Part shown: positions 1,120 through 39,740 of the stretch, piece after piece
Position numbering within the stretch: the stretch's first letter is position 1
Layout of the letters: every line of letters starts with the position of its first letter
Assembly: GCA_963920765.1 (NCBI GenBank)
Contig: OY987243.1
Span: forward strand, 13,020,001 to 13,084,000
Length of the DNA: 64,000 nt
Origin: Ulota crispa
Lineage: Eukaryota; Streptophyta; Bryopsida; Orthotrichales; Orthotrichaceae
Direction: 5' to 3'
Position numbers and translations under genes: made by a program
The notes under the pieces: model-generated
Databases searched by the model: none
Told to the model about the DNA's origin: nothing
What the model saw: the letters and a program-made list of their open reading frames with translations, nothing else

Positions 1120-1772
1120 TTAACTCCGAAATGCCCAAGGCACCATATTATGGTGTTGACAATATTTTGAACTTCTATAAAACCTTAGTAAGTTGTTATT
1201 TTTAGTATATATATATATTTTTGTTCTTTCTAATATCAAGTTTTAGCATCAGAAAATTGATTTTGTAAATGATTGATTGTGATTTTTCTATTCAAGATTT
1301 TGTGCAAGGGTGTCCATTGCAATCTTGATTTTTTTAGTGTTGAGAGCTCTTGGAAATGAGCCTCAAATACACTAGACCTTGAAGAAAAATTCACACTAGA
1401 AATTCATTTTAAAAATTTGTAAAAGAAATTTTGAAAAGCCTTAAATTGATTGGAGTTATGTATGTTATGTCCTTTAACCCTATGTTTTTCTTGTGACCAT
1501 TTTTTGAGATTTGACACGTGAAAAGAGGATTGAAAGACTTCAAGTCATTTTCACAATTTGAACATCTTCTTGATCAAACATTATAATCTTTCAATCTGTA
1601 AATGATATTATTGTGTTTTCTTTTCCTATGTGATCTCTAACATATCTAGTTTGATGTTGTACGGTTACAATTTTAAAAAATAATAATAAATTATATCAAT
1701 CTTCAAGCTTTTTGTTCAACATAGAACAAATTCCTAGAAGCTCAAAAAGTGCCTTGGGCATTTAGGGGTTAA
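1120..1772. mobile_element. TTAA-flanked (piggyBac-like) element, 653 bp class
   Basis: It starts TTAA-CTCCGAAATGCCCAAGG and ends with the inverse of CCCCTAAATGCCCAAGG followed by TTAA, an inverted repeat of about 20 bp with two mismatches. TTAA at both outer borders plus a pyrimidine-C start is the piggyBac-superfamily pattern. There is no transposase ORF, so it is non-autonomous. A related left half occurs at 3,690-4,080. Confidence 0.75.
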
Positions 1773-1917
1773 TGGGGGGTTCAATTGTGGTAGAGACTTT
1801 GCCAAAAATCCAAACTTGGACACTTGTTGCACAATCACCATATATAAAACTAAATATATTTCTCACCAATTTTTTTTTTTTTTTTTTTTTTAAGTAAAGA
1901 AGAGGAGACAAAATGTA

Positions 1918-2846
1918 TTAACCCCTAAAGGACCAAGTGTTTATTCAACAAACACTTGAGAACTTGGGTAAGGTCATGTGAAGTCAAATTTTATTGGATG
2001 TTTTTAAAATTATTACACAAGTTGTACATGTATCCTCCAAGTGGAAATGTACTTTTTTCCCAATCGGATGCCATATTCAAAAGCTATGCTGCCCAAAAGA
2101 ATTTTGGCATCTTTGGAGAATCTTATGCTATAACTCCCATCAACTTTTGAAATTTGGCATGTATGTAACTAATAAAATGTAGTCTACAATTGTCAAAAAA
2201 ATTGAGCTTTAAAATCACATTCTAAGAGTCAAACTTTGTTAACCATGTCCGGGCAATTTTAGTGAAAAATATTTTCTTCTAACTGTAGGCCTTTTATCCT
2301 GCAATCTGTAAATTCAAAGTTCTTAAATTTCTTTTTGCATATTCCAAATGTTTGTCTGTAACTTTCATTGTTTAGATTTCAAGTAAAAGGCTTCCTCATT
2401 GCACACAAAATCATGAAAATATGACTAGTGTATTGCCAATTCACTTAACCTCCTTGCACTGCAAGGTGATTTAGAATAAGCTAGATTCTACATTTGCTTT
2501 TGAAATTTTTCATGAGTGAACCTAACATCATATACTTACAAATAATCAAAAACCTCATTTTTGTATAGAGCAAAAACTTTACTCCAAGAGGGCTCAAAGT
2601 TGCTGACCTTATTTTGCAGGATTGAAAAAATAGTTGCTTTTCTCACTTCAAACATTACAATCTTACAATCCACAAAGTCAAATGGGCTGGATTTTTTTTT
2701 GCACACTTTGATTTATTTATTAAACACACTTTCTTATGGTTGAAATTCAGAAAAGTAGTTTTTATTTTCACTTTTGGGCACTACACTAAAAGTTGGCATA
2801 TTTTGAGATTTTTCTTAAAAAACACCCTCGGTCCTTTAGGGGTTGA
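1918..2846. mobile_element. TTAA-flanked (piggyBac-like) element, about 930 bp class, copy A
   Basis: The left end is TTAA-CCCCTAAAGGACC. The right end is GGTCCTTTAGGGG-TTGA, a perfect 13 bp inverted repeat in which one TTAA has mutated to TTGA. It aligns along its whole length with the element at 18,455-19,403 (for example a shared TTTTATTGGATGTT block, a TGCCCAAAAGAA block and a CTCCTTGCA block). It has only short accidental frames and no transposase. Its job, if any, would be as a substrate for an enzyme encoded elsewhere. Confidence 0.8.
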
Positions 2847-2926
2847 TATTTGAAATGTAGACTATTGTTTCATCATGCTCGCAAACTTTGTCAAGAGCAA
2901 TGTTTCACCTTCAACTCCAAATAGTA

Positions 2927-4080: not shown

Positions 4081-4083
4081 TTT

Positions 4084-4996: not shown

Positions 4997-5004
4997 GAAT
5001 TGCA

Positions 5005-5797
5005 TTAACCCCTAAGTGCCCCAGCGCCCCATATATTGCCTCCTTCTATTTTCAATCCTTGTTTTGAGGGACTAGATCTAACTTTTTGGTCTTACTTTTA
5101 CACTACAATTATGAAGGCATTCAAGTTGTCCATGCCAATGGAGTAATGGCAAGGAAAGCCAAATGTTGTACAAGTGCTACAAGAGATTTGATTGGGTGAA
5201 ATCATCATATGGGGAGTGGTGGCACCGTATAGGGTGTGCTAGCAAGTAGCGTTTTATAGGCTACAACTGGTCAGTATCCCTTTCAAGCTTCCTTGTCTGT
5301 ACTTTGTGGTGGCGAGAAAGTTGTTGGCAGGGGTTCAAGCATGTTCTAGACCCTTATTATGGCAATCGTCACCAACTAAGCTGGTCATTGTTTTTTGTGC
5401 AATAGCCATTTGAAACCCTATAACTTTGACATAAAAAGAAGCACAATCTTCAATAATTTACAAGTGTGTGCATTCACATCTAAACTTGCTACTCATAAAA
5501 TTTGAGATGAATCCAAAGCTTATAGAATTTTGTAAAAATCATTAAATAGCATGTACCTACCAAAAAATGAGGTTTTGTCATCACATGTTATTTGATCAAA
5601 TGTTATAATCTCCCATCTCCCATCTCCTGCGGTGAATTGTTCCCAAAATTTACAAACCATTTTCTAAGTAGGTGCTCCACTACTTTCAATGGTCAGTTTT
5701 TGTGGATCATCTGATTGACCGAGGTATAATGCATCAAAGTGGTCGGTCTCCAAAAACCCTAATTTTTGTGAAAATGGCATGGGCACTCAGGGGTTAA
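5005..5797. mobile_element. TTAA-flanked (piggyBac-like) element, about 780 bp class, copy C
   Basis: TTAA-CCCCTAAGTGCCC at the left pairs with GGGCACTCAGGGG-TTAA at the right (12 of 13 bp). It is homologous from end to end with 15,988-16,777 (same orientation) and 37,953-38,712 (opposite orientation). Shared blocks include TGGAGTAATGGCAAGGAAAG, ACAAGTGTGTGCATTCACAT and ATAATCTCCCATCTCCCAT. No transposase ORF. Confidence 0.8.
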
Positions 5798-6744: not shown

Positions 6745-6982
6745 TTAACCCCTAAGCGCCGGGTTGACATTATACTGTCGATGGGCCCACAAACTTTATC
6801 TCACTTTTTCTCTCAATCTGTATGGTGAAACCAATCATGGTTGGTCCCCATTAGCAAAGAAGGTAGTCTTTTTTCAAATCATGCAATCACTTTTTCTAGA
6901 TGTAATTTTCCAAGTTGTGGTGACCATTAAACCCCCCATTTTGTCCTAAATCCTAAAATAACTTTGGACGCTCAGGGGTTAA
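6745..6982. mobile_element. TTAA-flanked (piggyBac-like) mini-element, 238 bp
   Basis: TTAA-CCCCTAAGCGCC at the left pairs with GGACGCTCAGGGG-TTAA at the right. Both TTAA borders are intact. The interior is unrelated to the 780 and 930 bp classes as far as I can see. This is the classic structure of an internally deleted TTAA transposon. Confidence 0.75.
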
Positions 6983-7789: not shown

Positions 7790-7844
7790 GGATGAAAAAC
7801 AAAAAGGTGAACTAGTGTGTTTGAAGTATGAAGGATCAAACTTC

Positions 7845-8769
7845 TAAACCCTTTAAAGACCACACACATTTTCACTAAATCCACTAAAAACATGGACAAT
7901 AAATTTAGATGTGTAGTTGAATCAAATGTGGACCCAATTTGAATGATCCAACCGTATGAATGGAAAGAACACCTTGTTTATTGTAAAGTCTCAAAATTTC
8001 AACCAAATTTATTGTTGGAGGTAAAATATTTTAATGATTGAATGAGCGGTCATTCAAAAATCTCAATTTTTTCATGCTTGTGTGGTTATGAATGTTAACA
8101 ATTCATGCAAGTTGTGCTTGAGGCAAGCCTTATATTTTTAGAAAGCATGGTTTTTCACCTTTTTAACAAGGCTAGTGTCACACAATATGGATAAAAATAG
8201 CAGTCACAAGGTGTAGCTAAGTAGACAAAAGGGTCAACAAGTCCACTTTATTTGCTACCCTAAAATGGTTCTACAAGAAATTTGATAATTGCCATGGAAA
8301 ATCCGATTGGTGAAAACTATCAAGAATTGGCCTTAAATGTAGGATGACAAATTTTAATTCTGAAATGACAACACCATTTCAATAGATTTTCAAATATTGC
8401 AATTGTATTGTTACCTTATAGCAAAACAATGAAAGCACATTTCTAAGACAATTTACTTTTTTTAGGACCCCACAATTGAAATGTGGCATTCTTATTGGAT
8501 GTTTGATGTATTGTGTTGTTGCTTTTATCCATCTTTGACCAGATATGAATTAGTATTTTGAAGCCTTGATATATAAATATCATTGTTTATCAACTTGCAT
8601 ACCCAATTTCATTGGTGTTTCTTTAGTTGAATGCAAAGTTTTTGTACGTACATGAGTTCTTCAAGACCAATTTCCAATTTGTTGAGCAATTTTACTCTAT
8701 AGGCCAACAACCACTCTAACAACCACTCAGTGCGACCAAAATATGATTGCCTGGACATCAAAGGGTTAA
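7845..8769. mobile_element. TTAA-type (piggyBac-like) element, about 925 bp, copy H
   Basis: The right end ...TGGACATCAAAGGG-TTAA pairs with the left end CCCTTTAAAGACCACA, whose flanking TTAA has decayed to TAAA. The 925 bp length equals the class of copies A, B and I. I did not find close internal similarity to copy A, so it may be a separate subfamily. No ORF of note. Confidence 0.6.
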
Positions 8770-8825
8770 GCAAACTTCAGTTTGATGCATAAGATAAGCA
8801 TGCATATCATTATGATCGATGAAAT

Positions 8826-14968: not shown

Positions 14969-15897
14969 TTAACCACTAAAGGATAGTTGTTCCTTCGAGG
15001 GACAATTGGGATTTTGGGCATGTACCTATAGCTAAACTATTTCATGTGATTTTTTGAAACTTTTATGGAAGATGGGGAATTCAAAAATCTATGTGGGCAT
15101 TTAATTTTTCCTCATTATGACATTTGACGAAGAAGTTATGCAAGAATTTTTGCTGCCCAAGGGAGGGAGGCCAATTCAGGCAGCCCAAAAACTTCTTTAA
15201 AAAATGTATTTAAAAAAATAAAAAAATGAAAATTGGATCTTTAGATTTTTATATGTGGAAAGCTTTGAATCATTCCATTTCAATTAATGAGATGAAAGTT
15301 ATGAGATGTTTTAGTTTGTGGGCAGGTACGGATCCTCTACTCTAAAACAAACTTTGAAGTCTTTTATTTTCCACAATTTTCAATATTTTGGAAAAAAAAC
15401 TAAACCTAAGGAAGTAGATTTTTTATTACAATATTATAGCCGTTGGGATTTGCATTTTTCATTTCAATAATTAAATTCTCAACAATTTAGTGATTTGACT
15501 CATTCTCTATTTCTTCTTACTTACTATTTTTTCCCATGTGTTGTATAGTTCCAATTTATTTGAAAATTCTCACACACATGCCTAACTTGGTCTTCTACAT
15601 GGAAAAAATAAACCTCAACTTTGTGTAGAGCAATTTTTTTCATGTAAGAATGGTCAAAGGCTTCTAAGTTTTTTGGACAGCAAGGAAAAAAACCTTTTTT
15701 TTCACTTTAGATGTAAATATCTACCTCCTCTCCATCTTGAATGACCTGATTTTTTTCCCACAAGTACCTCTTCTAGTCTAAGGCAAGATCCTATGGTTGG
15801 ATTTCCCAAAAAAAAAACCTACCTTCTTACTCATCCCCTAGAAGTAGTAGTTTTGAGTGATTTTGACACAAAAAGGGCTTGGTACTTTAGGGATTAA
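14969..15897. mobile_element. TTAA-flanked (piggyBac-like) element, about 930 bp class, copy I
   Basis: TTAA-CCACTAAAGGA at the left and TACTTTAGGGA-TTAA at the right. Both TTAA borders are intact and the length (929 bp) is identical to copy A. The interior shares the general layout of copy A but is well diverged. No transposase. Confidence 0.65.
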
Positions 15898-15987: not shown

Positions 15988-16777
15988 CTAATCTTTGAGC
16001 GCCCTAGCATCTCATATATTGCCTCCCGTGATTTCAAAGCCTTGTTTGAGGCACTAGATCTAACTTTTTGGTCTTACTTTTACACTATAATTATGAAGGC
16101 ATTCAAGTTGTCCATGCCAATGGAGTAATGGCAAGGAAAGCCAAATGTTGTACAAGTGCTGAAAGAGATTTGATTAGATGAAACACCATACGGGGCGTGG
16201 TGGCAAGGAGCATTTTACAGGCTGCAACCAATCAATATCCCTTGCAAGCTTCTTTGTGTAAGCTTTGTGGTAGCCGGAAAGTTGTTGGCAAGGGTTCAAG
16301 CATGTTTTAGACCCTTGTTATGGCAATCGTCACCAACTGGGCCAGTAATTGTTTTATGTGCAATAGTGATTTGAAGCCCTAAAAATTGACATAAAAAGCA
16401 GTGAAATCTTTCATAATTTACAAGTGTGTGCATTCACATCTAATTTTGCTGGTCACAAAATTTAAGATGAATCATGGGCTTATAGAAGATGAATCAAGGG
16501 CTTATAGAATTTTGTAAAAATCATCAAATAGCAACTATCTACCAAAAAAAGAGATTTTGTCATTATATGTTGTTTGATCAAATGTTATAATCTCCCATCT
16601 CCCATGGTTAGTTATTCCCAAAATTTGCAAGCCATTTTCTAAGTACTAAGTGTTCCACTATTTTCAATGATCACTTTTTGTGGATCATCCAATTCACTAA
16701 GATACAATGCATCAAAGTTTTTGATCTCCAAAACACTGATTTTGGTGAAAACAGCCTAGGCGCACAAGCCTGGTTAA
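15988..16777. mobile_element. TTAA-type (piggyBac-like) element, about 780 bp class, copy D
   Basis: It is homologous over its full length to 5,005-5,797. The left border has decayed to CTAA-TCTTTGAGCGCCC and the right end is GGCGCACAAGCCTGG-TTAA. It carries a small internal duplication of AAGATGAATCA-GGGCTTATAG near 16,465-16,510. Confidence 0.7.
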
Positions 16778-18454: not shown

Positions 18455-19403
18455 TTAACCTCTAAAGGACCAAGTATTGTTGAGAACTCGGGTAGGGTCA
18501 TATGGAGTTAATTTTTATTGGATGTTCTCAAAATTGTTACACAAGGTGTAAATATGTATCTTTCAAGTGGAAATCTAATTTTTTCCCCAATTTGATGCTT
18601 GGTTCAAAAGTTATGTTGCCCAAAAGAAAATGGGCAGTTCGGGCAATTTGAGCATCTTTGGAGAATCTTATGCTAAAACTCTCATTAACTTTTGAAATTT
18701 TCGCCAAGTATGTAACTAAAAGAAAATGGTTTACAATTGTCAAAAAAATAAACAAATTGAGGACTCACATCACATTCTAAAGGGAGCCAAACTTTGTTAA
18801 CTATGTTTGGGCAGCTTCAAGAAAAAAAAATTCCTCTAACTTCAAGCCCTGTTATCTTTCAATCTATAAATCTAAAGCTCTTGGAACTTTTTTTCACATA
18901 TTCCAAATGTTTGTCTCCAACTTTTCACCTTTCAGATTTCAAATAAAAGACTTCCACATTGCACAAGAAATCATGAAAGAATGACTAATGTATTACCAAT
19001 TCACTAAACCTCCTTGCATTGGAGGGTGATTTAGAATAAGCTAAACTCTATATTTGCATCTGAAAATTTTCATGAGTGAACCTAACATCATATACTTGTG
19101 AATGGTCAAAAAGCTCAAATTTGTGTAAAACAAAAATTTACTCTAGGAAAGGTCAAAGTTTGCTGACCTTCTTTTGCAGGAATGAAAAAAAGCTATTTTT
19201 CTCACTTCAAATGTTATAATCTTACAATCCGCGGGCTCAAAAGGGCTGACTTTTTTGCACACATTAACTCATCTATTTGACACACTTTTATATCGTTGGA
19301 ATTGAGAAAAAAGGTTTTTATTTTAAATTTTGGGCAATGCACTAAAAATTGACAGTTTCTGAGATTTTTTCTCAAAAAACACCCCTAGTCCTTTAGGGGT
19401 TAA
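18455..19403. mobile_element. TTAA-flanked (piggyBac-like) element, about 930 bp class, copy B
   Basis: TTAA-CCTCTAAAGGACC at the left pairs with GTCCTTTAGGGG-TTAA at the right. It is the full-length homologue, in the same orientation, of copy A at 1,918-2,846. Length differences are small indels. Both TTAA borders are intact and no ORF encodes a transposase. Confidence 0.85.
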
Positions 19404-19430
19404 GTGTTTACTAAAAATGCCTAGTAGACA

Positions 19431-19569
19431 TTATTCATTAAATTGGGAAAAAGTGACATTTTGGGAATTTTGGATTTTATGATTTTTAGAGAGCATTCAT
19501 TGAAGGCTCTTTAAAAATTATAAAATCCAAAAGTCCCAAAATGTCACTTTTTCCCAATTTAATGAATAA
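19431..19569. mobile_element. Palindromic MITE (TTCATTAAATTGGGA end), 139 bp
   Basis: TTATTCATTAAATTGGGAAA and AAGTGACATTTTGGGA pair almost perfectly with the inverse right arm, leaving a small loop (GCATTCATTGAAGGC region). It begins 27 bp after the end of TTAA copy B. Confidence 0.8.
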
Positions 19570-21108: not shown

Positions 21109-21407
21109 CAAATTCATTAAAATGGGAGATTTCCACTAAATTGAGAGGTAGTTGAAAGGAAATTTGATGAAAGGTTTTATTGCAATTTAGCTTGAGTCAA
21201 GCTAAATTGCAATAAAGTTATAAAACCTTTCATCAAATTCCCTTAAAATTAGAAGGTTTTATGTAAAACCTTTCAAAACTGACTTAAAATTAGAAAGTTT
21301 TAGGTCAATTTAGCATAAAACTCTACTTTTAATGAAAATTGCTGATTCAAGTTAAGATCAACATGATTATTTTGAGAGGTGCCCAATCTCCCATTTAATG
21401 AATATGG
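21109..21407. mobile_element. Palindromic MITE (TTCATTAAATTGGGA family) with internal hairpin
   Basis: The outer arms AATTCATTAAAATGGGAGAT and ATCTCCCATTTAATGAAT pair across about 300 bp. A nearly perfect inner hairpin (about 21,158-21,242) has arms of roughly 36 bp, with AAACCTTTCATCAAATT and CAATTTAGCTTGA as the key pairing blocks. No ORF. Confidence 0.7.
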
Positions 21408-21599
21408 TATGGTATTTATATTGCCATTTTAACAAAAATGACAGTTCAATTTACTTGAAAACAAACTCTTAACTTCTTGTGAATTTATGTAGACAAATGA
21501 CAACAATGGAACTAGGCTGAATGTCATTTTCATCATGTTTGAGAGTCGAGACTTTAAAATATTGTCTCCCCTGACCGTTACTGAATATGATGATAAAAT

Positions 21600-24500: not shown

Positions 24501-26259
24501 ATATTCTCAAGCATCGATTGAATCGAGACAGAGAAAGACATACCTTTAGGCTTTAATATCAGACATTGATCCGTTACTCGAAATCTCACCGGGTAGGATC
24601 CTTAAAAGATGACTCAGGCATGCTTTATCGAGACCTTGGCCATCCCCATTCCCCACAAAGGTGTCGGCATTGCTCGATGAAGCATTGCAGGCTTCGGTTG
24701 GTGGACAAGTGCTTCAAAATAATCTCACTCGATCAGAGAGCCGTAGCCCGTAGGAGATGCGCGGTTCTAGTAACATTCATCATGAGCTGCAATTGATGCT
24801 GAAGTGTTCCACCAAAATGATTGAGCTCGTTAATTACAGGGCTTAGCCTCAGCTCACGTGGCTCCTGAGGTCCGAGGTTGCTATTTGGCAGTGCTGCCAA
24901 GCCTGAGGAGCAGCCAGTCACTATCGTGAGTTCTGTTTTGAATCAAGACGTCGGACCTGGTGACGAGCGAAATTAGTTATCCTCAATGAATGAACGAGGT
25001 CGACATTCGCTTATGGAACACATTTCAACAGAAATTTGAGAGGTTTATGGAATCCAATCGACGTCTAACTTTGGAAAATTAGCAATCTTGAGTCCCGGGC
25101 AGTCGTAAATTTGTGTCAAATGCGGGTCACTGCATGTGTTTTGCTCGAAAAAGCAAGCTTACCTGGAAAGAACTTTGAATGTCCCTGCAGTTCGCACTTG
25201 TTCACCGACAGTTGGCACCAACAGCATGTCGATGATGTGAACCACATACCGTAAATTACGTTTGAGCAGCTTCAGTGGATGTGCTTGAAGAAAATCGGTT
25301 TCAAATCTAAACCAAGTCCCCGGTGCAACCTGCAAGGCTGTAAGAACCCTTCCTATCGACAGAGCGTCTAGCGACTGGAATCGTGGCACCCATTAATATC
25401 ATAAGAAGCATCATAGCTGAGCACATACCCCATTTCTATAGTAGAACATTCACACTTTCACGGGGTGTACACACACATATAAATCTTAATGCCGGCATTT
25501 CACAAGCGGAAAACTGTTCTGAGCTCGGGTCAATCTGTTTAGCACAATTGACAGCATCCGGATTTCAATAAAAGATAATCATCTGCAGTAAGAAAAAATA
25601 GGGTGACCCATGTCGTACAGCTTGAGAGTGAGCGCAGTACGTTCTCCGTACAGCATCTTCCAGCTTGATCTACGACATCACTACTGTCGTGGTTCTTCAA
25701 CTCCTTAAATGAAAGGAGAACCTGAAATGCCTCAGAACGACAGACTTCCCGGCACGGCAGCACTGCCGCAAGGAGTTGACTCGAAAAAGTGACGAAAACT
25801 AAGTCCAGCAATTATAAGAATGAGTTACGGGAAAAAGAATATCAAATTCTCGCTCCCCAAAGCCGTATCTAACCTCCCCTTCTGTCATCGGACTGACACA
25901 CTGATCACTACAAGCGTACTGTACAGATAAGTAATCCTTGAAAGCTGGACAATTTGGCTAACTGATGGAGGAGCTTCTAAGAGACCCTCACTGCATCGTG
26001 TACGCATCGCCAATTTGATAATGTGGACCTAAGGTAAACCAATTCTATGACTCTTCTATACTTGAAATGAAACTTCAAGCACACCATATTATTTGATAAA
26101 TCAACGAAAAAGATCATGGCCTATTCTAGTGTACCCCGCCGGTGGCTAAATTACTCGAGCTGAGCTGCCTCGCATTGAATCCTATGGATAGACGATTCGA
26201 AGGTCCAATAGAAGTAATGAAATGGAACGGTGGCGGTTTAAGAGGGAGATCGGCATTGT
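21600..26259. other. GC-richer, transposon-poor island without a recognisable gene
   Basis: Base composition shifts visibly away from the AT-rich flanks, and I see none of the window's MITE ends here. Low-complexity items are a G-rich run (about 21,790-21,816), GTAGTCGTAGTAGTCGTAG (about 22,050) and a CAGCAGCAACAGCAGCAAC run (about 23,425). The longest frames (60-90 codons) match nothing I know and mostly start at non-ATG codons. It may hold UTRs, regulatory DNA or non-coding transcripts associated with the ZHD gene; this is inference. Confidence 0.5.
25158..25169 (-). other. Candidate splice donor (minus strand)
   Basis: The minus strand reads TTCCAG|GTAAGC, a full plant donor consensus, with the intron starting at 25,162. 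It closes an open frame of about 75 codons (25,159-25,389) that begins at GTG, not ATG. That would suit an internal exon or a non-coding exon. The frame itself matches no family I recognise. Confidence 0.35.
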
Positions 26260-27024
26260 TCATTCAACTTTCTTCCCAATGGTGTTCTTGTTGTTATGCA
26301 TCCACACCTTTAGGACGTGCCGCTTGACCCCAGCCTCAGCACAAAACTCTTGCACAGCTGCCTCGTCGTGCTTCTGGATCTTCCAGCCCAGCTTCTCTGC
26401 AAATGCAGCCATTCTTTCTTTCTGTTCAGTAGTGAACTTAGTACGGAACCTCTTCTTTAAGGTAGACGGCGACCCGCTCAAGCCACCATCGCCATCGTCA
26501 GAGTCAGCTGGTCCAGGACCCAGCAGATAAGGAGCAGACTGTGTGACTCGGCTGATAATCTGGGCTGGTGACGGAAGAGCCAACATGTGAGGAGCACCAG
26601 TATGAGTCGAAGGGGCTCCTGGAGCTATCATCGGTCCCCGCTTAATACGTGCATCATTCCGGATGTTCTTGCAATCACAAGTAGCCTCTCCTTCGATTTC
26701 TTTTCTATGAAAGTTCCTATGACAATCACAGGCTGCGCACTTGTTGGCATCGACTGTGCCTTCCTCTCCACCCGGCATGAATTCACCGCAGCCATCAACA
26801 GCATATCCTCCAGTGTTAATGGCATGGTTCCTGTTACATTCTGCGTATCTAACAGCTTTTGCCTTCGCTTTTACATTCGCCGCTTCTAACGCCCTGAGGT
26901 CATTCATACTGGCACCGTTTCCACTGCTGTGATACTTCAGCTTACCGGACTCGTGAAGGCCAGCGAAAGCAGCCGTGTTTGGCATCTGCGGATAAACTAT
27001 CTTATGAGATACCACTGGTTCCAT
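26260..27024 (-). CDS. Zinc-finger homeodomain (ZF-HD/ZHD) transcription factor
   Basis: This is a plant-specific DNA-binding protein, expected in the nucleus and expected to dimerise through its zinc finger. I start it at the ATG at 27,024, giving 254 residues. The open frame runs nine codons further to a TTG at 27,051, with an in-frame TGA just above, so that longer start is not supported. The ATG has G at -3 and +4. Residues about 58-109 are the ZF dimerisation domain (GGYAVDGCGEFMPGGEEGT, then CAACDCHRNFHRKE), with Cys63, His67, Cys79, Cys96, Cys99, Cys101, His102 and His106. Residues about 190-248 are the homeodomain, ending KVWMHNNKNT (recognition helix with Trp241 and Asn244). A low-complexity linker (GPGPADSDDGDGG) joins them. 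Having both domains separates it from the MINI ZINC FINGER proteins, which lack the homeodomain. Known ZHDs regulate development; the role here is inferred. The stop is TGA and the CDS appears to be a single exon. Confidence 0.95.
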   Translation of the reverse strand: MEPVVSHKIVYPQMPNTAAFAGLHESGKLKYHSSGNGASMNDLRALEAANVKAKAKAVRYAECNRNHAINTGGYAVDGCGEFMPGGEEGTVDANKCAACDCHRNFHRKEIEGEATCDCKNIRNDARIKRGPMIAPGAPSTHTGAPHMLALPSPAQIISRVTQSAPYLLGPGPADSDDGDGGLSGSPSTLKKRFRTKFTTEQKERMAAFAEKLGWKIQKHDEAAVQEFCAEAGVKRHVLKVWMHNNKNTIGKKVE

Positions 27025-27115
27025 AGCGTGGCTCTCCTTCACCTCTACCAAATGAGAAGCATTTCAAACCCTGTACTTCACTGCCTTCGAATTTTCTCTT
27101 GTGGAGACTCTGCAT
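27002..27115 (-). CDS. Possible upstream ORF overlapping the ZHD start
   Basis: On the minus strand an ATG at 27,115 opens a 37-codon frame that ends at TAA (27,002), 23 bases past the start of the ZHD ATG and in a different frame. It would exist only in transcripts that retain this sequence. A 5'UTR intron with an acceptor downstream of 27,115 would remove it. The peptide matches nothing I know. If present, it would be expected to reduce translation of the main protein. Confidence 0.3.
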   Translation of the reverse strand: MQSLHKRKFEGSEVQGLKCFSFGRGEGEPRYGTSGIS

Positions 27116-27727
27116 CAGTTCAGATAGTTATTCAACTTTTTGGAGTCGATTTCCGACCTCCTCTCTGAGATTTTGCTATTATATAGAAGCCTGATCCTCC
27201 GTGCTCCAGGTAACAGAAGTATGTATCAGTCTCTGACTACTGGTGAAATAGTAGGCGTTGCAACACAGTGCGACAGAGACGAACTCATGATCCTGCACCG
27301 CACATCTCTTGACCCTTAGCAGTACGAATTCGGGTGTAACACTATGTTATTGCAAGCAGCAGCTTCTTCGAATCCAAATAAGGAGACAAAAATCCAACTT
27401 AATCTCCGCTGCTAGTTATATAGATCACTATCTTCAAATGAAATCCTTACTAACAAATATGGACGGGAGTAATAGTTACAAATTACAGGTTACGTAGACT
27501 GAGATAAGTTACTACTTTCGTTCACCGAGCCGATCTCCTGCCATTAATGAGGTCTTCTGGCGGGCAAGAGAACTCTCTCAGGTTCTGCTACGAAGAACCT
27601 TCACATAATCCTTTCACGTATCAACTAATAAAAACCAGAAAACTTCTCATCCCTTACAGTAAGCACGAAAGCACGAACATGCGATTCTGTATTTAAGGAC
27701 GGAGGCTAGGAAATCAAATACACTCGG

Positions 27728-27737
27728 ACTTACCTTT
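27728..27737 (-). other. Candidate 5'UTR splice donor of the ZHD gene
   Basis: The minus strand reads AAAG|GTAAGT, a strong donor, with the intron starting at 27,733. It follows a pyrimidine-rich leader (CTCTCTCTCCTCTACG at about 27,770-27,785). Possible acceptors before the ATG include TTTGGTAG|AGG (about 27,046) and GTACAG|GG (about 27,070). This predicts a leader intron of about 0.66-0.69 kb; only transcript data can confirm it. Confidence 0.45.
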
Positions 27738-28494
27738 AACTAAAAAGAGAAAGTGAATTTCTGTCGTAACGTAGAGGAGAGAGAGACTCGCTGCAGCTTC
27801 CACGCTGAGATAACAAACAGCAAATAACAAAACAAAAAGAAACTCAAGCCGCTTTGTTATTAAGCATCGCAATCAGCAATGGCGCAGCAAGTAACTTCTC
27901 GACGAGATCTACTGTGTAAGTTCCTGAGATGCTTCCAGCATACGGATTAAATGGGCTGCGTGTGCAAAAATCACAGGAAGAACGTAGGCGCACGACTCTC
28001 AAGAAACTCCTCTACACTTTTCCATCAAATAAACGAAAACCGCTCTTCTTTTAAATCAAAAAGCCTCGCTATGTGAAAAGAACGTCGTTCACGAGGACCT
28101 GAACGCTCCTCGAGCCTGCTCGTGCGACTTTCTTAACACAGCATCAAATCAGATTATGTCAAAATCGACACAAACACTGCCACGGACCTCTCATGAGCTA
28201 CAACAACAGACACAGCTATCTGTTACTAACTCCAGGAGTTTCCTCGGATCCACAGCAAGCTTCCGAGATTCCAAACAGCAGCCACAAGCCGGGCCACAAA
28301 CCACGCAAGTGGCGCAACTTGGAACGAAAGCGAATGAGCGCGTGGGAACGGATAAATTTCTAAATTGATTTTAATGGCGCGCACGACAGAGAGGGAATCG
28401 AATCGGAGTATAAGAAAGAGAAGAAGAGAAAGGTGAGCGCGGCGGATGGAAATCTGCAGCAACTACACAGTGGCTCGGGAGATGCAGCAGCAAA
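27738..28494 (-). promoter_or_regulatory. Probable leader and promoter region of the ZHD gene
   Basis: This GC-richer stretch lies upstream of the gene on the minus strand and is CT-rich on that strand (TTTCTCTTCTTCTCTTTC at about 28,410-28,432). I see no TATA box in a convincing place. A CT-rich, TATA-less start would be common for plant genes. The exact transcription start cannot be read from sequence. Confidence 0.4.
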
Positions 28495-28864
28495 AGCTCC
28501 CAAGTTAAGAGGGAAAAAAGCAAAGCTGCGAGAGAGAAGAGACGAGACCATACGGAGACAGGACCCGGCGAATCACTGGGTCAGAAATGGGCGGGTCTGA
28601 CGAATAGCGACAAGGAGTCGATGAACGTAATGGGAAAGCGAATGAATGAACTTGCATTCTGTTCGTTCGAGCTCCCAAGGTAGTGGGAAAAAGGCAAAGC
28701 TGCGAGAGAGAAGAGACGAGACCATATGGAGACAGGACCCGGCGAATCACTGGGTCAGAAACGGGCGAGTCAGAAATGGGCGGGTCTGACGAATAGCGAC
28801 GGGGAAGTCGACGAACAGAATGGGAAAGCGAATGAATTATTGGACGTGCATTCTATTCGTTCGA
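28495..28864. repeat. Tandem duplication upstream of the ZHD gene
   Basis: Two copies begin AGCTCCCAAG (28,495 and 28,670) and share GCAAAGCTGCGAGAGAGAAG, GGACCCGGCGAATCACTGGG and GGGCGGGTCTGACGAATAGC. They end TTCGTTCGA. Unit 1 is 175 bp. Unit 2 is about 195 bp because of an internal GGGCGAGTCAGAAAT-type expansion and small insertions. Identity is high, so the duplication looks recent. It lies at the junction between the GC-rich island and the AT-rich repeats. Confidence 0.9.
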
Positions 28865-30411
28865 TTAAAAGTCAGGTCGCTGTCGCATTCGGTATTGCAA
28901 AAATAATACAAATACTTGGGGAAGGTTTTGATCATTTTTTTGCTCTAGTCTCCAAGAGGAGGCTTAGCTATGATTATTATTTTTTGGGATGAGATGCAAT
29001 TTGAGTGGACCTTAGTAAAAAAAAAAAAACTAGATTGCTACAATGCGAAAGCTAATCATAGTCTAGTTGCTTGTTATTCAAGTAGAAACAACAAAAGAAA
29101 GTGACTCGGTTTTTGGTTTTGTCTTTGGGTTTATTTTTTTATTGGCTCTGGACTGCACAGGATGAGACTTTGCATCAAGTAAAGCTACATATAGAAGTAT
29201 GAGTATGTACTTTAATTGAAAAGCCACTAGCAAGTGATATATGGACGAAGCGTTTTGTAGTAGAGTTGTTTATTTATTGTGCATTTAAAATAGAAATGAG
29301 TGTTGATGTGTTTCAAAATATCAAAATAAAATATCATGTTGACACCAACATCTGTTATCTAGTCATTGTAAATAGTGAATTTATTGTGGAAAAGACCAAA
29401 TTGTTGAATATAGCAAGTGAAGACTTGATAAATTAGTGGAAAAACTCAGGTTGATTCACAAGATATTTTCTTGGATTATGAAAATACCATACATATACAC
29501 AATATTTATTAATTAAAACCTTCACTAAAGCTCAAATTTTGAGTGATTTTGGGAACAATGTAATTTTTATGAGGTTATTTTGATATTATGATATTGTCTT
29601 TAAAAAAAAGTAGTCATATTCAAAATTTCCAAAATATCATAAGCCATATTCATATGTGAGCATCAAATACTTGATTGTAGAGTATACAAGGGTAAGTACT
29701 TTTTTACTTTAAATTATTTTCATACAATGAAAACCTTTAAATGTTTCATAAAATGTTTGAAAAGCCATAACCTTAAATTAAATTCAAAAGAAATGGAAAT
29801 CTATAAAAATCACAATTCACAATAATACAATATTGTTTTGACAAATTTACATACATCTTGCCTATGCCAAAATGGTCTTTATATATGTTAACAAACAAAG
29901 TTTGTATTTTGGGCAAAGTAATTCGTAGCTTAACAACATGACCTTTGGCACCATGACTTGTCATGAAACTAATTATGTTTATAAGTAAGGCTACATCACG
30001 AATGACTCACCTATACTATAAATTGTGGATTGTTCGTAACACAATATTCAAAATTCTTTATCAATACCACAAGTTCAAAATGAGAAAGAGGTCAAGCATT
30101 AGGTCTCTATCTTTTACCTAAAATTTAAAATTCAAAAAGAGGAGAGGGAGGGGAAAAGATTGGGAAACATAAGGTGAAAAGTCACTTCAAAACTCTCCTC
30201 AATTTAAGGAATAAATCTTGAGAAGCATGTGCAAGACCTGCTTGCATATCTTAAAAACAACACAATTTGACATTGAAAGTAATTTCAACATTCTTTTCAT
30301 ATATTGTTATTGATGAAATTTAAGTCAAAGCGGAATTCTTCCTTTAAAAACTCTAGTCTTTTTTTACCTTTATATGTTTTTGCTCATGTGGTTTTACAAA
30401 TGTTTTTGGGG
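28865..30411. other. Unassigned AT-rich stretch
   Basis: Composition drops sharply to AT-rich just after the tandem duplication. No gene or clean inverted-repeat element is recognised. Confidence 0.45.
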
Positions 30412-30465
30412 AAATTACAAATAGGGGCATGAAAACGTAAAATATCACAAATAGGGGCGCCTTAG
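30412..30465 (+). mobile_element. Solo left end of the GGGGAAATTAC Mutator-like element
   Basis: GGGGAAATTACAAATAGGGG, GCATGAAAACGTAAAATATC and ACAAATAGGGGCG are nearly identical to the first 50 bases of the element at 19,879. The match then stops and I find no right end downstream. It is a truncated copy. Confidence 0.75.
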
Positions 30466-32671
30466 GGGGGTCATTGTGTAAAAAAAGTAAGGGGTAGGTG
30501 TAAACACCAAGTATTTTTGAGGGGAGTATTACTTTTTCTTTTTTTTTGAAAATGTCATCATTATATTATTTTTTACTTTGGGTTATTAGAGAAGGGGCTT
30601 GAATTACTTATAATTCTAAATTGATATGATTAAACAACATGGTAATTTAGATATAAAAAACAATTCTACTACAAATTCTCTCCTACATTAAATTTCTTCC
30701 AAACTTTTTTTTCCCCCACTAATGACTACCTACAACTTGAATTTAACAAAAAAGTGTAGTCAATACTATTATAATAAAAAGTGTCAATGACACTCATTTA
30801 CTAGGAGGATATAAAATTATTGAACACTTTGAATATGCCACTCACAAGGCAACATTACTTAATACTTTTGGCCAAAACAAGGAATAAAAAGGAGGGTATC
30901 CTAGGTCTAATTTTTTTCTAAGTGGACCTATTTTTCTATACCCTATAGCAGTTTGAAGACATGTCATGGCATTTTTGTACCCTATAGTACAAAAAAAGAA
31001 AACTAATTTTTACCTCAAATGTTTTTTAGGCACCCTATCATTTGTTTGCAAGTAGTTTTCTACTACTACCACACACTGCCCTCCCCAAACAAGTGGGTGG
31101 AGATGTCCACACATACAAGTTACATTTATAAGACCAAAAATGAACCATTAAAACAAATAAACTAGTATACTTCTTTTTTGTATAATATGTCAACATGGAA
31201 AATTTTAGTTGGACTTCTTTCCATGAGACAAAATTTCAGCTGGTTAAAAAATTTAAAATCTGATACGCATCTACATGTTGGTGTAGAATTGGGCAAATAT
31301 GGAAGAATTAACTGTATTGGCCACTTGTGGTTTAGAGGTTAATGAGAATTCTCCAGATGTTGTCTCTTTGTTGCTTAGGACTTATTCACCTATTTTATAG
31401 TAGCTCCTACAACTCTTGCAGCATTTGCTCCCACACTCCCTCAGGCACTTTCCTTGTGAGATGTTCTTTTTTGTGTATAGGTTTAGATAGCAAAAATATT
31501 AAAATCGCATGACAACAACAAATTTACAGAGCGTGATGCAGGCAAGGCATTTTTTTTAGGGCGAATCTGTTTCCGCCAGATTTGCAATGGCGCCAGCCCA
31601 TTGCTCAATAAATTGCGGATGACATATTACTAGTAAGGTTTTTCACCAACTGGTGACAAATGGCCAAATAAAAATCCGTTGGATGCAGGTGTTTATGGAA
31701 GGAACACGTCCCAAAATTTAAATTTGTATTAATAAATACCATGTTTTATAAAAAGAAAGCTACAAACTTTCAGTAACCATTAACAAATCCCAATAATTAT
31801 ATTGCAATGCCAAAAAAATTCTTCAATTTATTTGAAAATCATGAATTGCAAATTTAAAATTCTTTTTATATGAACAAGTGAAATTTTTTTGTTATCTATC
31901 TGATATTAACCTTGGAGAGTTGCAAACAAGCCTTGACTTTCATATGGTGAAGAGCTATGGCAAGGCCAAATTTGCCAAGAACACAACGAAAATCAATAAT
32001 CTAAGCTCCAAACCAATAACATATAGGCATTTACAATCAACAAGAAGACGAATTTGGAGGAAAAAGTGCTGTACAAAAAATGATGTTGGAGAAAAAAAAA
32101 TACCAAGAGATTTTGGTTGTAAAAATGAAATGGATGAAACACAAAATTTGTTAATTTGGGAAAAAGTGCAATTTTGGATTTTATGTTTTTAAAAGATTTT
32201 TGGTAATTTAGAGTGATTGTTAAGTTGATTTCTTCAAACATTACATTAATGATGAAATGTCTTGGAGTTATCAAAAAAACTCCGTTAAAATCATCAAAAT
32301 ATTCTCACAAATGCAAAATTCAGTATCTGCAAAATCTAGTTTGGGAAAAACATTTTTCCAAATTAAGATATCATATTGTGAACATTGGAAAACAAACAAT
32401 CTAGTGACATGCGAAAGGAGGAATTAAAATTATGAAGATAGCTGAAAAACTTCCTCAAAACCAAGGACTGTTCTATATTAGGACCTAATCGTTGACCCAA
32501 TTTAAGAACCCTGAAAATGAACCAACAAATTTGCTCAAACCCTTGAAATGGGCCATCAATTGTGCCCTAAGGCTTTACATTGAGGATTGCTCATATTGAT
32601 CTATGTTGTTTATGTGCCATATTTGTGGCACCAAATGTTGATTCCAAGCCAAAAATTTACTCATTACAAAT
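30466..32671. other. Unassigned AT-rich stretch
   Basis: No named gene. A possible orphan TTAA-element right end (TTTAGAGG-TTAA) lies at about 31,331-31,342. The 104-codon plus frame at 31,878-32,192 is lysine-rich and runs into sequence resembling the TTCATTAAATTGGGA MITE (AATTTGGGAAAAAGTGCAAT at 32,153), so it is probably not a gene. Confidence 0.45.
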
Positions 32672-32838
32672 CACTATAAAAAACTTGTGTTTTTTATAAC
32701 GGATTTATTGGACATCCACTTTATGTTACAATTGATGTCAAAACTAACATCTTGATATTATATTTGATGTCATTGTTAATACAAAAATAAGCGGACATCC
32801 AAAAATTTGTTGTAAAAAAACATGGATTTCTTATAATA
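32672..32838. mobile_element. Possible decayed CACTA-type MITE
   Basis: The left end CACTATAAAAAACTTGTG and the right end GATTTCTTATAATA are close to an inverted CACTA terminus (CACTATAAGAAA-like). Inside, GGACATCC occurs at both sides in inverse orientation and TTGATGTCA-type blocks pair. No intact 3 bp duplication remains. Confidence 0.5.
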
Positions 32839-34086
32839 AAAGCATCAACTCAATTGAAGAACATGGACATGTTTTTTTAATTTAAAATCACAACATGCAC
32901 TAGTTTGACTGAAGGGCTCTATACTAGAACTCAGTCAAAACTTTGGTCCAATTGGTGACCCATTGGATTTTGAATTGGAGCATAAGGCCCCAACATAAAG
33001 TGACCGTTAATAAAAGGAACCTCTTACATTCTACAATGAATGACTTGTCTTTTTTTGTTCTACCAATGAACTCCAAGGATGGTCTCCTCAGTCCTCACTC
33101 ACGACACTTTGATTGAATTGGCTAATGCTTTTTGTTTTTATTTTTCCTCACTCATTCATTGGTCAAACGACACGTACCTTAGATTACATTTATATTGAAA
33201 AAAATGGATAGAACCAAGCATGCATACACATTCATCCATGAGATCAACTAATGTGACTTCTTTTCATCCTACATTTGCTACATCTAAAGTCCCTTTTCAA
33301 GAGATCTGATGATTTCATCCATTTTGTTGACCCCATTTTTTTTGATATTATCAAGGTGGCCGGTATCAAAATGAGTTAAGATCCTAGCAAGATTCCACCC
33401 AAAAAACTTCCGTGGTGAATAGCTTGATCATAATAATACGGAGTAATTGGGTGAACTATTTCGATATCAGAGTCTGGTGAGAAAAACACACCAATTTAAG
33501 ACTGTAAAATAACTACGTTAGTACTTTTAGAATGGAACTGTAGGAAAATGTCCATTTTTTGTTTTTTTGTTTTTAAATCTAACCTAAAAAGGATTCCCAC
33601 AACTGATTGGGCAGAACATCAGGACAGCATTCATTGAAGGCACCTGAGCAATCTCAGTCAATTCCACTATAAAGTATAGACTTATATTTCAACTAATATT
33701 AGCCTCCAAATTGGAAATAATTTTTAATATAATTCTAATGCTTTAGGAGGATATTTCACCTCATTGTATGTTTTTGGTTTTTTCTTATTTTAAATATATG
33801 CATATTAGGGGCGGTCCACATTATGTCTCACTTCTCAAATTTGCAAATTTCTACCCTTAACTCAATATTTTTCAAGTATATTTGGGTGTAAAAGGGGTAA
33901 AATTAATTACTAAAAGATGACTTGAATGTTTTAAGTAAAAAAGAAACAAATTTTGGGACTTGGGTTCTAAGTTTGGGTTTTGTTTTTGCTTGGTCCAATT
34001 TTTGAGGGCAGTTCCATCTTTTTGCAACCAAGACTTTCCAAAAGTGCTATCATGTATTCATTTCTAAGTGAACCTATACATGAGAC
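32839..34086. other. Unassigned stretch with one GGGGCGGTYCACA repeat end
   Basis: At about 33,809 the sequence GGGGCGGTCCACATTATG matches the outer end of the elements at 40,823 and 51,827. No paired right end was found before 34,087. The remainder is AT-rich with no gene recognised. Confidence 0.45.
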
Positions 34087-35265
34087 TTAACCCCTTAAGG
34101 ACCAAGGAGCCCACTTTGGGCTTTATGAGAACTCAGGCAGGCTCTATTGATTTCATAATTTGGAAATTTTTCATGAAATTTTTAGGATGAATACTACTCA
34201 TCATAATCTACATGGGAAGCTTTATTTCATGTCATTTCAATAAGTAATGCAAAAGTTAGAAGGTTTTTTCAATTTCAATGTCAAACCAGAGCAAAAATTA
34301 TATTCTTTTTTTATTTTTTATTTTTTTATAGAACGTGTTATTCACTAAATTGGGAAAAATGGGTGTCCCAATTTTGTACCCACCTTAAACCCAAAAAGTT
34401 ACCTTAAACCAAATTCAAGGTATCAAATTCCGTCTGAGCCACTAAGATTTTTTCCCTCGCAAATTCTTCCTCTCAGGAGAGGCCATGTGGACCGGTTTTA
34501 GGAGTACTCTTGAAAGTTAACTAAAACCTTCAAAAATCCAAGAGTCCCACTTTGTAAGCAAATTCCCAAATTAACAAATAACGCATTATAGAATTGTATA
34601 GATTAATACCTACTCAATAATAATTGAATCACTCAATTCCAAATAATGAGGTAAGAGTTAAAAGGAGTTTTCTTTTGCAAGCAATGAAGGTAGAAAGAAG
34701 GTAGAAAAAACATATAAAGTTGTCTTTTACTCTCAATTTTGAAAATTTTCAAATGAAAATTTAAACAAAAGTTACTAATTGTCTGTTAGAGCATTCCTAC
34801 CATTTGGATTAACCATTTTCAAATTCTTCCAAAACTTATTAGCATATTAGTTATATCTTTCATTCATTGATACCTTTCACTTTTCAATTTTTGTAAAAAT
34901 GAATCCAAAATTTTTTTTGGTTGAATTTTTTTATATATGCTTTCAACCCATTTCTCAACATATCGCAAAAATTGCACAAGAAATACAACATACGGGTTTT
35001 TCTCTAAAAAGTTTGAAAAACGAAATTTCACCTTCTAGAAGAACTAGAAAAGCCTACATTTTGAAGTTTAGGCACATTGATCTTGCAATTGGTGGGGATG
35101 TTCATTTTGAAATTTTGGGACAACATACTTGTGCAAGTCAACCAAAGGATCCTACGGTTGGATTTGTTAAAAAGTAAGTTCCAATTAAGATTTTGACCCT
35201 GATTTGGGGACTAGTATTTTGAAGCAGTTTTGGGCTTCTAAACACAAAAGAATTTTAGGGGTTAA
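34087..35265. mobile_element. TTAA-flanked (piggyBac-like) element, copy J, with nested insertion
   Basis: TTAA-CCCCTTAAGGACCAAGG at the left; TTTTAGGGG-TTAA at the right. Removing the nested element and one 8 bp repeat (34,334-34,585) leaves about 919 bp, the size of the 930 bp class. GAGAACTCAGGCAGG near the left end parallels GAGAACTTGGGTAAGG of copy A. Its right TTAA is also the left TTAA of the next element. The 92-codon frame at 34,899-35,177 has no transposase signature. Confidence 0.75.
34334..34585. mobile_element. hAT-like MITE nested in TTAA copy J
   Basis: The arms CGTGTTATTCACTAAATTGG and CCAAATTAACAAATAACGCA pair. TTATAGAA occurs on both sides (34,326-34,333 and 34,586-34,593), an 8 bp duplication as in hAT elements. 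It shares its core with the MITEs at 8,826, 19,431 and 21,109, whose duplications are not visible. Confidence 0.6.
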
Positions 35266-36032
35266 CCCCTAAAGACCAAAGAGCCCAATATGGCCAAAGG
35301 GGGTGCTTGGAGGTGTGAAAGTATACAAAAGAGGCATTTTTAGCTCAAATTTTGGTCTGCCACTCAAGTCCAAATGGAGTTGTTAGTTCAATAAAAATTT
35401 CTGATCAGCTTGTTGTTCCTTGAAGCGCCTCCTTTGCTCTAGATTTTGCATGGAATATGGAAAATATCCTATTTTTTCAACAATTAGGAGTAGAATGTCT
35501 TTGGGCAAACAAAGGGAGCGGCTTAAAGAGCGGATGGAATGGGTGCTCTCATGTCTCATATTGTACAAGGGAGAAGTTTGGTGATGTGTCCCCTTTTTTG
35601 TTCTTAATTTGGATAAGGTTTTTATAGCTCTAAAGTAAGGAGCTGGTGAAATCTACGTACTTTGAGTGACCATATCTTTTAGAGTTTTTTTCCATTTGTG
35701 GAGTTTTTTTTTCCATCAAGTATAGCAAGACACAATCTCATGGGATCAGCCATTAGGTAAAACTTTTTTTTGAGAAATATTACAGGAAAGTTCAAAATCT
35801 ATATTTTGAACTGTTGCCCAAATTGGAAAATATGAGATTCCCAACGGTGGGGATTTGGCAAATTTACTTGGATTTGAAATCAAATCAGTTGGAAACATTT
35901 GATTTATAGTTGGGTATAGAATGACCGGTTTGGATTATGTGATTACTTGTTCAACTTTCAAAAAACTAGAGGAATGTGTTGAAGGTTTCATGTTGGAGTT
36001 ATGCTTTTCTTAGCAAGACGCTTAGGAATTAA
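35262..36032. mobile_element. TTAA-flanked (piggyBac-like) element, copy K, abutting copy J
   Basis: The left end TTAA-CCCCTAAAGACCAAAG is clear and its TTAA is shared with copy J. The right end is my best match, GACGCTTAGGAA-TTAA, giving 771 bp. The right border is less certain because the terminal GGGG has become GGAA. Confidence 0.55.
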
Positions 36033-37952: not shown

Positions 37953-38712
37953 TTAACCCTTGAGCGCCTAGAGTTATTTCACCAAAATGAGGGTTTCTAG
38001 AAACCTACAACTTTGATACATCATATCTCAATCAATTAGTTGATCCACAAAAAGTAACCATTGAAAACAATGGAACACCTACTTGGAAAGGGCTTGCAAA
38101 TTTTGGGAACAATTGACTGTGGGAGATGGGAGATTATAACATTTGATCAGAAAACTCGTGATGGCAAAATCTCAATTTTTGGCAGGTAATTGCTATATGA
38201 TGATTTTTACAAAATTCTATAAGCCCTTGATTCATCTCAAATTTTGTGGGTAGCAAGATTAGATGTGAATGCACACACTTACAAATTATTAAAGATTGTA
38301 CTTCTTTGAATGCCAAGTTTGAGGGCTTCAAATTGCAATGGCACTGAAAACGATGTCTGGCAAAGTTGGTGAGAATTACCTTAAAAAAGGTTCAGAACAT
38401 GTTTGAACCCTTGCTAGTGAATTCCTTGCTACCACAAAATACATTGCAAGGAAGTTTACAAGGGATATTGACCAATTACAAGATGTAAGATGCTCCCTAC
38501 CACCTTGCCGCATATGGTGTTCTATGCAATCATGACTCCCTAGCTACTTGTACAACATTTGACTTGACTTGCCATTACTTCACTTGCAAGGACTACTTGA
38601 ACACCTTGATAATTGTAATTTAGTGCAAAATCAAAAAATTAGAGCCGATCCCCAAAATGCCCCATGAAATCCTAAGCGACAGGATCCCGCTTGTGAGGCG
38701 CTCAGAGGTTAA
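37953..38712. mobile_element. TTAA-flanked (piggyBac-like) element, about 780 bp class, copy E (inverted)
   Basis: TTAA-CCCTTGAGCGCC at the left pairs with GGCGCTCAGAGG-TTAA at the right, and both TTAA borders are intact. The interior is the reverse complement of copies C and D (for example GGGAGATGGGAGATTATAAC, TGTGAATGCACACACTT). Opposite orientation at a third place shows true transposition, not tandem duplication. Confidence 0.85.
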
Positions 38713-39197
38713 GGGCTTACAAACAAATGTGAACTATCATATAGACATACTATTGACTTTCCATTGACTTCATTGATGCTTATCAACAAGTTTTGAAACA
38801 AATTATTGTAAACTTCTTCAAGAATTGGTAATTGACTTGTTATTGTTGATTTTTACAAAGTTGTTTTCTTTAGGCTTCTAAAGGCAAACAAAACTTTATT
38901 GTCATTTTTTTTGTTGAGGTTCTAGTGGGTACATTATATTTGCTTGATTCATATGTAATTTGGGATAGACATGTGTTTCATTGTAGCTTTATTTATTTGC
39001 TTAAAATAAAAACAAGTGTATGTATAAATTTTATAAAGAATATTCAAGCAAAGGGGAGTCTTATTCTTCACTACACTCTTTACAACTTTATACTTGGAGG
39101 TTCCTAAACTCAAAAAAATTACTTGCCTTGATATTGGTCCTTTAGTTTAAATGATATTACAAATTAGATAGGCCAAGATTGGGTAAGAAATGTGCGT
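38713..39197. other. Unassigned AT-rich stretch
   Basis: No gene is recognised; a 60-codon frame at 38,925-39,107 has no signature. Confidence 0.45.
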
Positions 39198-39740
39198 TTA
39201 ACTCCTAAACGCCAGAGGGGGTAAGGGCAAAACATAAATGCATTCAAAAAAATACTCTTGTAACTTTAATGAAGTTTTTTTCAAAAGAGAAAATAAGAAT
39301 CATGATGTTTAGCAATTATCCATATGGTCAAATATCCAAAAAAAAGCTTTGTACTCTTATTTAATGAATTTAGAAGCATTTATCATCAAAATTCACCAAA
39401 ATTACAAATTTTACCCATAGATTTCAAGTTTTGGTTTGATTGGTTAAAAATAGACATTCTATCCTAAACTTCAAAAATGCTATCTTTTGAAAGGAGGGAA
39501 CATCATTAGTTTCTAGAAATAGTAAATTCTACAAGACTAGCAAATTTTGAAGTATTTGTTTTTGAAAAATTCTCCTTGGAGGAGTTTAACTTGGATTAAC
39601 ATGATTCAAATTAAGTTGGAAAGTAGACTTGATTTTCTATTATAGGAAAAAAAAGCTTTTTTGATTTTTTTTTTGTCTTGGATAGCCCGCAAAAAATGGG
39701 CAACGACCAGAAAATGGCCGCTTGAGCGCTTAGGGGTTAA
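39198..39740. mobile_element. TTAA-flanked (piggyBac-like) element, 543 bp
   Basis: TTAA-CTCCTAAACGCC at the left pairs with GAGCGCTTAGGGG-TTAA at the right. The interior differs from the other length classes. About 55 bp further on, GGCTCTTGGGCGCCAGAGG repeats the look of its left end (CGCCAGAGG shared), which may be the stub of another copy. Confidence 0.7.

Follow-up and report, generated by a model that had tools for sequence, protein, structure and literature searches.

piggyBac is a main transposon of genome engineering, and its form from Trichoplusia ni (T. ni) has short termini that start with CCC, like those of the elements studied here. We analysed a stretch of 64,000 nucleotides (C2:13020001-13084000 of an assembly of 274.8 Mb in 157 contigs; hereafter the window) that contains a swarm of TTAA-bounded elements, and compared it with genomic loci elsewhere in the assembly, which are designated by L-numbers (L029, L030 etc.). 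With a probability of about 0.92, we regard the elements as non-autonomous members of the piggyBac superfamily, i.e., miniature inverted-repeat transposable elements (MITEs), which piggyBac-type transposases of the same genome mobilised in trans; the host is a plant, in all likelihood a moss.

The moss elements resemble T. ni piggyBac (PDB 6x67, 6x68) in their TTAA target and in a DDE_Tnp_1_7 transposase with the same catalytic Asp residues. Papers are cited here by PMC number, through excerpts of their texts. The T. ni element measures approximately 2.5 kb and has one open reading frame (ORF; 2472 bp, PMC10813416), whereas the transposase-bearing moss elements measure 5.0-5.1 kb and have an extra coding block. 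Animal piggyBac families likewise combine TTAA, CCCTT/CCCT-type termini, and a DDD domain (PMC10813416, PMC12732532), and those of beetles, with 2074-3465 bp and a single ORF (PMC12732532), are shorter than the moss elements. The typical, although not defining, layout of 2-3.5 kb with a single ORF is thus not that of the moss elements, which have 5027 and 5102 bp and a conserved block upstream of the transposase.

The superfamily has been listed for land plants before: the repeat table of a fern (Ceratopteris) has 1230 PiggyBac entries, which are fragments (PMC6890710), a review names PiggyBac MITEs for angiosperms (PMC10004981), and a survey found PiggyBac in all its groups, including land plants (PMC4438587). 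The remark, made from the sequence alone, that piggyBac is known mainly from animals, fungi, and algae is weakened to this extent, as land plants are not without precedent. These annotations bear the same superfamily name as the moss elements, and the excerpts of PMC6890710 and PMC10004981 give a count or a family name without transposases, termini, box, or extra coding block. In the titles, abstract openings, and excerpts of the open-access literature on piggyBac, no description of moss transposases, of the 3' box, or of the upstream block described below turned up, and those of the Niphotrichum moss genome paper hold just the word piggybacking and no piggyBac transposon.

A swarm of TTAA-bounded elements

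When no more than one mismatch is allowed, the window contains 13 ends of the form TTAA plus CCCYTNANNGNCC; 60 dinucleotide shuffles gave 0.12 on average and 2 at most. With up to three mismatches there are 30, against a shuffle mean of 11.8. The motif TTAACYYYTRARNGNCC occurs 9 times on the plus and 7 times on the minus strand at no more than one mismatch (reversed motif, 0 and 0); at three mismatches its counts (29 and 27) approach those of the reversed motif (24 and 21), so that the weakest elements are indistinguishable from chance. Across the genome, TTAACCCCTAAG has 1371 forward and 1371 reverse occurrences, and the reversed pattern 13 and 12. The swarm of TTAA-bounded, inverted-end elements described in an earlier, sequence-only reading is therefore real, with about a dozen members in the window. 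Nine of the 11 starts listed there read TTAA, the others being TAAA (7845) and CTAA (15988).

The twelve elements make up 14.8% of the window, using the borders of that reading or close ones and counting later insertions inside them. They have the features of MITEs: 238-1179 bp in length, multicopy, with terminal repeats and no coding capacity. In four of the twelve the 13-bp inverted ends are weak, with 3/13 identical positions in 15988, 6 in 35262, and 8 each in 34087 and 14969. Families C and I have at least 40 copies each, and G nearly as many. The elements, together with a fragment related to transposase elements, are listed below, with the strand where one is assigned; "box" refers to the conserved 3'-subterminal sequence treated further on, with its score against a 31-letter consensus.

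1120..1772, plus strand: MITE family A, 653 bp; TTAA at both ends; box 1570-1600 (28/31)
1918..2846, plus strand: MITE family B, 929 bp; right end TCAA; terminal inverted repeats (TIRs) 13/13 identical; box 2644-2674 (21/31)
5005..5797, plus strand: MITE family C, 793 bp; 40 of 2118 candidates scored, 30 loci aligned; box 5592-5622, core exact
6745..6982: MITE family D, 238 bp; the TTAA at 6927-6930 corresponds to the insertion site of a nested element in L056, here uninserted
7845..8769: MITE family E, 925 bp; left border TAAA; no clear box in the window copy
14969..15897: TTAA element, own family or remote relative of B, 929 bp; no box
15988..16777, plus strand: MITE family C, old copy with decayed ends; box core 16574-16595; right end read from the sequence
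18455..19403, plus strand: MITE family B, 949 bp; 79% identical to 1918-2846; box 19203-19233
34087..35265: TTAA element F; split by a 252-bp insertion at 34334-34585; right TTAA in common with element G; no box
35262..36032: MITE family G, 771 bp; no box
37953..38712, minus strand: MITE family C, reversed, 760 bp; box 38120-38150; its TTAA at 38381-38384 is the counterpart of the nested site of L059
39198..39740: MITE family I, 543 bp; no box
44960..46126, minus strand: fragment akin to the 3' end of the transposase element L032 (lineage D, see below), from blastn matches to L032 (72-77%) and L008

Several of these have relatives at transposase loci. A family A copy at L029:8702-9354 has the same borders as 1120..1772 and is 84% identical to it; the family E element is homologous to L030:957-1827 (79%); 1918..2846 is related to 18455-19403 and to L032:1301-1953, and parts of 14969..15897 to L029:261-938. 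The old family C copy is 81% identical to 5005-5797 over 787 columns. The fragment at 44960..46126 has a box at 45121-45151 (21/31) and a 326-bp repeat (45230-45555) between its parts, which are contiguous in L032; 45256-45557 is a repeat also present in L001, L046, L050, L051, and L055.

Elements F and G (34087-36032) have one TTAA in common, a double end at 35262. They stand side by side again at C2:17567992-17569673, and G-like sequence comes after F at C3:20409355-20411131; hence, the pair may have moved as a unit. The 252-bp insertion in F is flanked by an 8-bp duplication, TTATAGAA, and is not a TTAA element; two other genomic copies of F are without it. As to a possible excess of elements that abut one another, the 263 kb of loci compared, which were chosen mostly because they contain elements, have 1500 TTAA sites; 174 of these bear an end, and 15 of the 174 bear a double end. 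We claim no targeting from this count.

Copies tend to end at TTAA, and a few have uninserted relatives

The elements are repeats with definite borders. Of 40 scored matches to 5005-5797 (from 2118 candidates), 30, itself included, span positions 1-793 of 793 by visual count. In 30 family C loci that were aligned, TTAA is present on the left in 26, on the right in 27, and on both sides in 23, and the left flanks are unrelated (mean ungapped identity 0.26). Searches with 39198-39740 plus 20 extra bases per side, and with 35262-36032 inside a longer query, gave 24/40 and 20/45 other matches, respectively, that share both borders within one base (by eye). Homology between genomic copies thus tends to stop at TTAA. 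The family C copies have a mean pairwise identity of 0.909 (range 0.879-0.932; 30 loci). Being approximately 91% alike, they stem from a burst that is not very recent and are no evidence of current activity.

To look for uninserted sites, we joined the flanks of 48 elements around one TTAA and compared them with the fetched loci and the window, the comparisons being paralogous. Three nested insertions have contiguous uninserted relatives, and the single TTAA anticipated at empty sites was found in two of them (L056 and L059), the third giving the near match TTAG. The nested copy in L056 lies in a 238-bp MITE, and both relatives shown, window 6745-6982 and L002, have TTAA. That in L059 lies in an older family C copy, whose relative in the window, 37953-38712, has TTAA; other relatives deviate at this site, with TTGA in L003 and ATAA in the majority of family C. 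For the nested copy in L046 the relatives of the host repeat have TTAG (L050, L001), and the window relative differs more.

These data bear on whether the elements are MITEs of the PIF/Harbinger type, a frequent kind in plants (PMC10004981). In that case 3 bp, TWA, would be duplicated, and the TTAA would consist of TTA and a conserved A. The uninserted relatives of L056 and L059 contain the complete TTAA once, the termini start with CCC, and piggyBac transposases sit between matching termini. We rejected the Harbinger-type reading of TTAA on the border data of the 30 loci and the four-base single TTAA, and consider it very improbable.

Some piggyBac transposases lie between matching termini

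A profile search of the genome with PF13843 (DDE_Tnp_1_7) gave 120 matches on contigs C1 to C11 (best E 1.3e-73), which come from 116 scored of 528 candidates; in 14 control genomes it gave none. The matched stretch is free of stop codons in 10 of the 120, several of them partial (by eye). The core of L030 best matches piggyBat of Myotis lucifugus in the PDB (9c0f, E 2.4e-25), followed by T. ni piggyBac (6x67, E 6.4e-24). Of 22 transposase copies, 12 have the complete set of four catalytic Asp residues (the triad and one more). The tree of these 22, from residues aligned to L030, has several deep lineages with pairwise identities of 0.29-0.81: A (L029, L030, L031, and relatives), B (L033, L015, L028), C (L066, L013, L027), and D (L011, which is the same place as L032, with L025, L026, and relatives). 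The C-terminal tails of L032 and L031 are visibly rich in Cys and His, with no Pfam zinc-finger match at E 0.001.

Two types of transposase element have similar TTAA-CCCYTNANNGCC termini. L029:1663-6689 (5027 bp; ends CCCCTCATCGCC / CCCTTCATTGCC) and L030:1896-6997 (5102 bp; ends CCCTTGACCGCC / CCCTTCACCGCC) are both bounded by TTAA and enclose a transposase. Between L029 and its copy L031 the identity is 90.5%; their alignment ends at the TTAA borders within a base, the left border of L031 being TTCA. The same genome thus contains, in L029, L030, and L031, piggyBac transposases whose terminal repeats match those of the MITEs. The right end of L032 (CCCCTAAAGGCCC) resembles MITE family B (CCCCTAAAGGACC). 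No left end was found for L032, and no clear end pair for L033, L066, and L067. Most transposase loci were compared with only 1.5 kb of flank. In the window itself, tblastn with seven transposase pieces returned chance matches only. Four hallmarks of the piggyBac superfamily are found together: the TTAA target, short TIRs that start with CCC, a DDD transposase, and its location inside like termini. The piggyBac identity proposed by the sequence-only reading is supported by the PF13843 transposases inside TTAA-CCCYTNANNGCC-ended elements.

piggyBac has been described mainly from animals and fungi (PMC12732532), and the transposase matches could in principle represent contamination or another organism, the plant MITEs being unrelated to them. 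We regard this as extremely improbable. The matches are spread over contigs C1 to C11; window MITE families adjoin the transposase elements, with a family A copy beside L029 and a family E copy beside L030; the box is common to MITEs and transposase elements; and the window, on C2, contains a plant ZF-HD gene.

On the piggyBac reading, a transposase would recognise the CCCYTNANNGNCC termini of a MITE, excise the element at its TTAA, and bring it into another TTAA, which would thereby be duplicated. The MITEs would thus be mobilised in trans by the piggyBac-type transposases of the genome.

A conserved box inside the 3' end

Several MITE families and transposase lineages A and D have a conserved box of approximately 30 bp that starts 162-176 nt inside the 3' end. 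Its 22-bp core, GGAGATTATAACATTTGATCAA (read inward from the 3' end), lies some 175-206 nt inside this end in family C, L029, L030, and L031. It is present at no more than two mismatches in 29 of the 30 family C loci (L046 is without it), and 20 shuffled cores gave no match in the window. The 19-mer GATTATAACATTTGATCAA occurs 952 times in the genome, and for 616 occurrences TTAACC lies 158-188 nt outside, a number in which a few boxes appear twice; the reversed pattern gave 0 in both cases. A looser core combined with the full terminus has 434 genome matches (reversed, 0); the ends listed, among them that of the transposase element L030, belong to at least two families, of the CCCCTGAGCGCC and CCCCTCAAGGCC types.

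A comparison restricted by position adds boxes in L032 (lineage D), in the fragment at 44960, and in families A, B, and E (the L030 copy). The 31-letter consensus was written from the scored sites, which makes its scores partly circular; on it, L030 and the E copy score 20/31, no more than the best shuffle, and the B copy in L032 scores 19. In a less circular test, with a matrix that leaves out the locus's own family, L032 scores 19.3 bits, L009 18.3, L014 20.3, L018 21.1, and L021 15.3, against a random maximum of 14.5; other-strand or upstream stretches reach 14.1. The DNA of L029 and L030 can be aligned in just seven short patches, of which the box is one. The scores of element 5' ends and of the window copies at 7845 and 14969 are within the shuffled range.

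The box follows the transposase in 5 of 24 scans of transposase loci (L009, L014, L018, L021, and L032), the scans covering 22 distinct places because L011/L032 and L019/L033 each denote one place. Against its generality, the other 19 scans found no box, most of them with only 1.5 kb of flank, and none was seen in L066, L067, and L033 with 2.6 kb.

We infer that the box may be a cis-acting site for transposase binding or regulation. It could also be a remnant of common descent, a target of host silencing, or part of a promoter or transcript end, which we hold to be possible but less likely than not. In favour of these explanations, families F, G, and I and most scanned transposase loci do without the box, so that not all elements need it. 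Set against these explanations, the box keeps an almost constant distance from the end amid sequence that cannot be aligned between families, and the MITEs retain it despite coding for nothing. Two precedents for its possible role exist in described elements. A 172-bp internal domain at the 3' side of T. ni piggyBac activates transcription (PMC1783651). piggyBat has functional, inhibitory subterminal sites within approximately 120 bp of its left end (PMC11707139); the moss box lies 162-200 nt inside the 3' end.

A coding block upstream of the transposase

In L029, L030, and L033 a conserved coding block of approximately 100 residues precedes the transposase; its consensus is NCLQExxLLE...RxWRYLCxRQIAKLLGWQER, and L066 and L013 match it more weakly. 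No match was seen in L032. From sequence conservation, the block is placed as follows.

L030:2525-2893, plus strand: upstream coding block
L029:2390-2677, plus strand: upstream coding block
L033:6990-7349, minus strand: upstream coding block

The block has 88 matches in the genome. For 36 of them, the 8 kb that follow contain a PF13843 transposase in the same orientation, at 1475-4461 bp. A further six are followed by a transposase tail no more than 4.2 kb away (by eye), and a single one has the transposase on the wrong side or strand. The remaining blocks adjoin no scored transposase, with just 116 of the 528 transposase candidates scored. The block has no relative in Pfam (to E 10), NCBIfam (to E 1), or the PDB (to E 5). 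It may be part of the transposition machinery, as an exon or as a second gene.

Points that weigh against the piggyBac reading

Several observations speak against the MITEs being piggyBac elements mobilised by these transposases. Transposition itself was not observed, and mobilisation in trans is deduced from sequence. Stop codons interrupt 110 of the 120 PF13843 matches (by eye), end pairs were found in lineage A only (L029, L030, L031), and no MITE was traced, as an internal deletion, to any one transposase element. For the third nested insertion (L046), none of the relatives shown reads exactly TTAA. In families F, G, and I the scores for the box are within the shuffled range. The repeated bursts proposed by the sequence-only reading are a weaker point, their dating relying on the mean identity of 0.909 in one family.

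Host and genomic setting

The host is a plant, as shown by a gene in the window and by a LEAFY exon of the genome, in agreement with the land-plant origin first read from the sequence.

26260-27063, minus strand: ZF-HD transcription factor gene, by profile match (PF04770)

The LEAFY exon is identical at 104/106 positions to PDB 4bhk (FLORICAULA/LEAFY homolog 1), which is well ahead of 9fwy, 9g19, 2vy1, and 8s8q. We take 4bhk to be the Physcomitrium (moss) protein, and the Asp after KPKMR is presumably the moss type of LEAFY; the host is most likely a moss.

The stretch around the ZF-HD gene, from 19404 to 34086, is free of the twelve listed elements. Directly to the right of the MITE that ends at 19403 is a fold-back (19422-19578) with two 78-bp arms, 90% complementary and one base apart, and at 59712-60512 a large palindrome of approximately 800 bp matches its own reverse complement at 96%. 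An Rfam scan of the window gave no match.

Implications for the piggyBac superfamily

We suggest, at somewhat less than even confidence, that mosses harbour an old, diversified, and uncharacterised branch of piggyBac. Its elements of approximately 5 kb would have, upstream of the transposase, an additional conserved protein block with no recognised fold, as well as a distal 3' box for recognition or control at a fixed distance, kept by the MITEs and common to deep transposase lineages. With these deep lineages and thousands of exact terminus matches, the moss would offer a land-plant branch for comparison. The occurrence of families with and without the box in one genome makes the role of distal subterminal sequences in piggyBac testable, and the upstream block raises the question of a second protein part that some piggyBac elements may require. 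These two features are the ones that most deserve a test.

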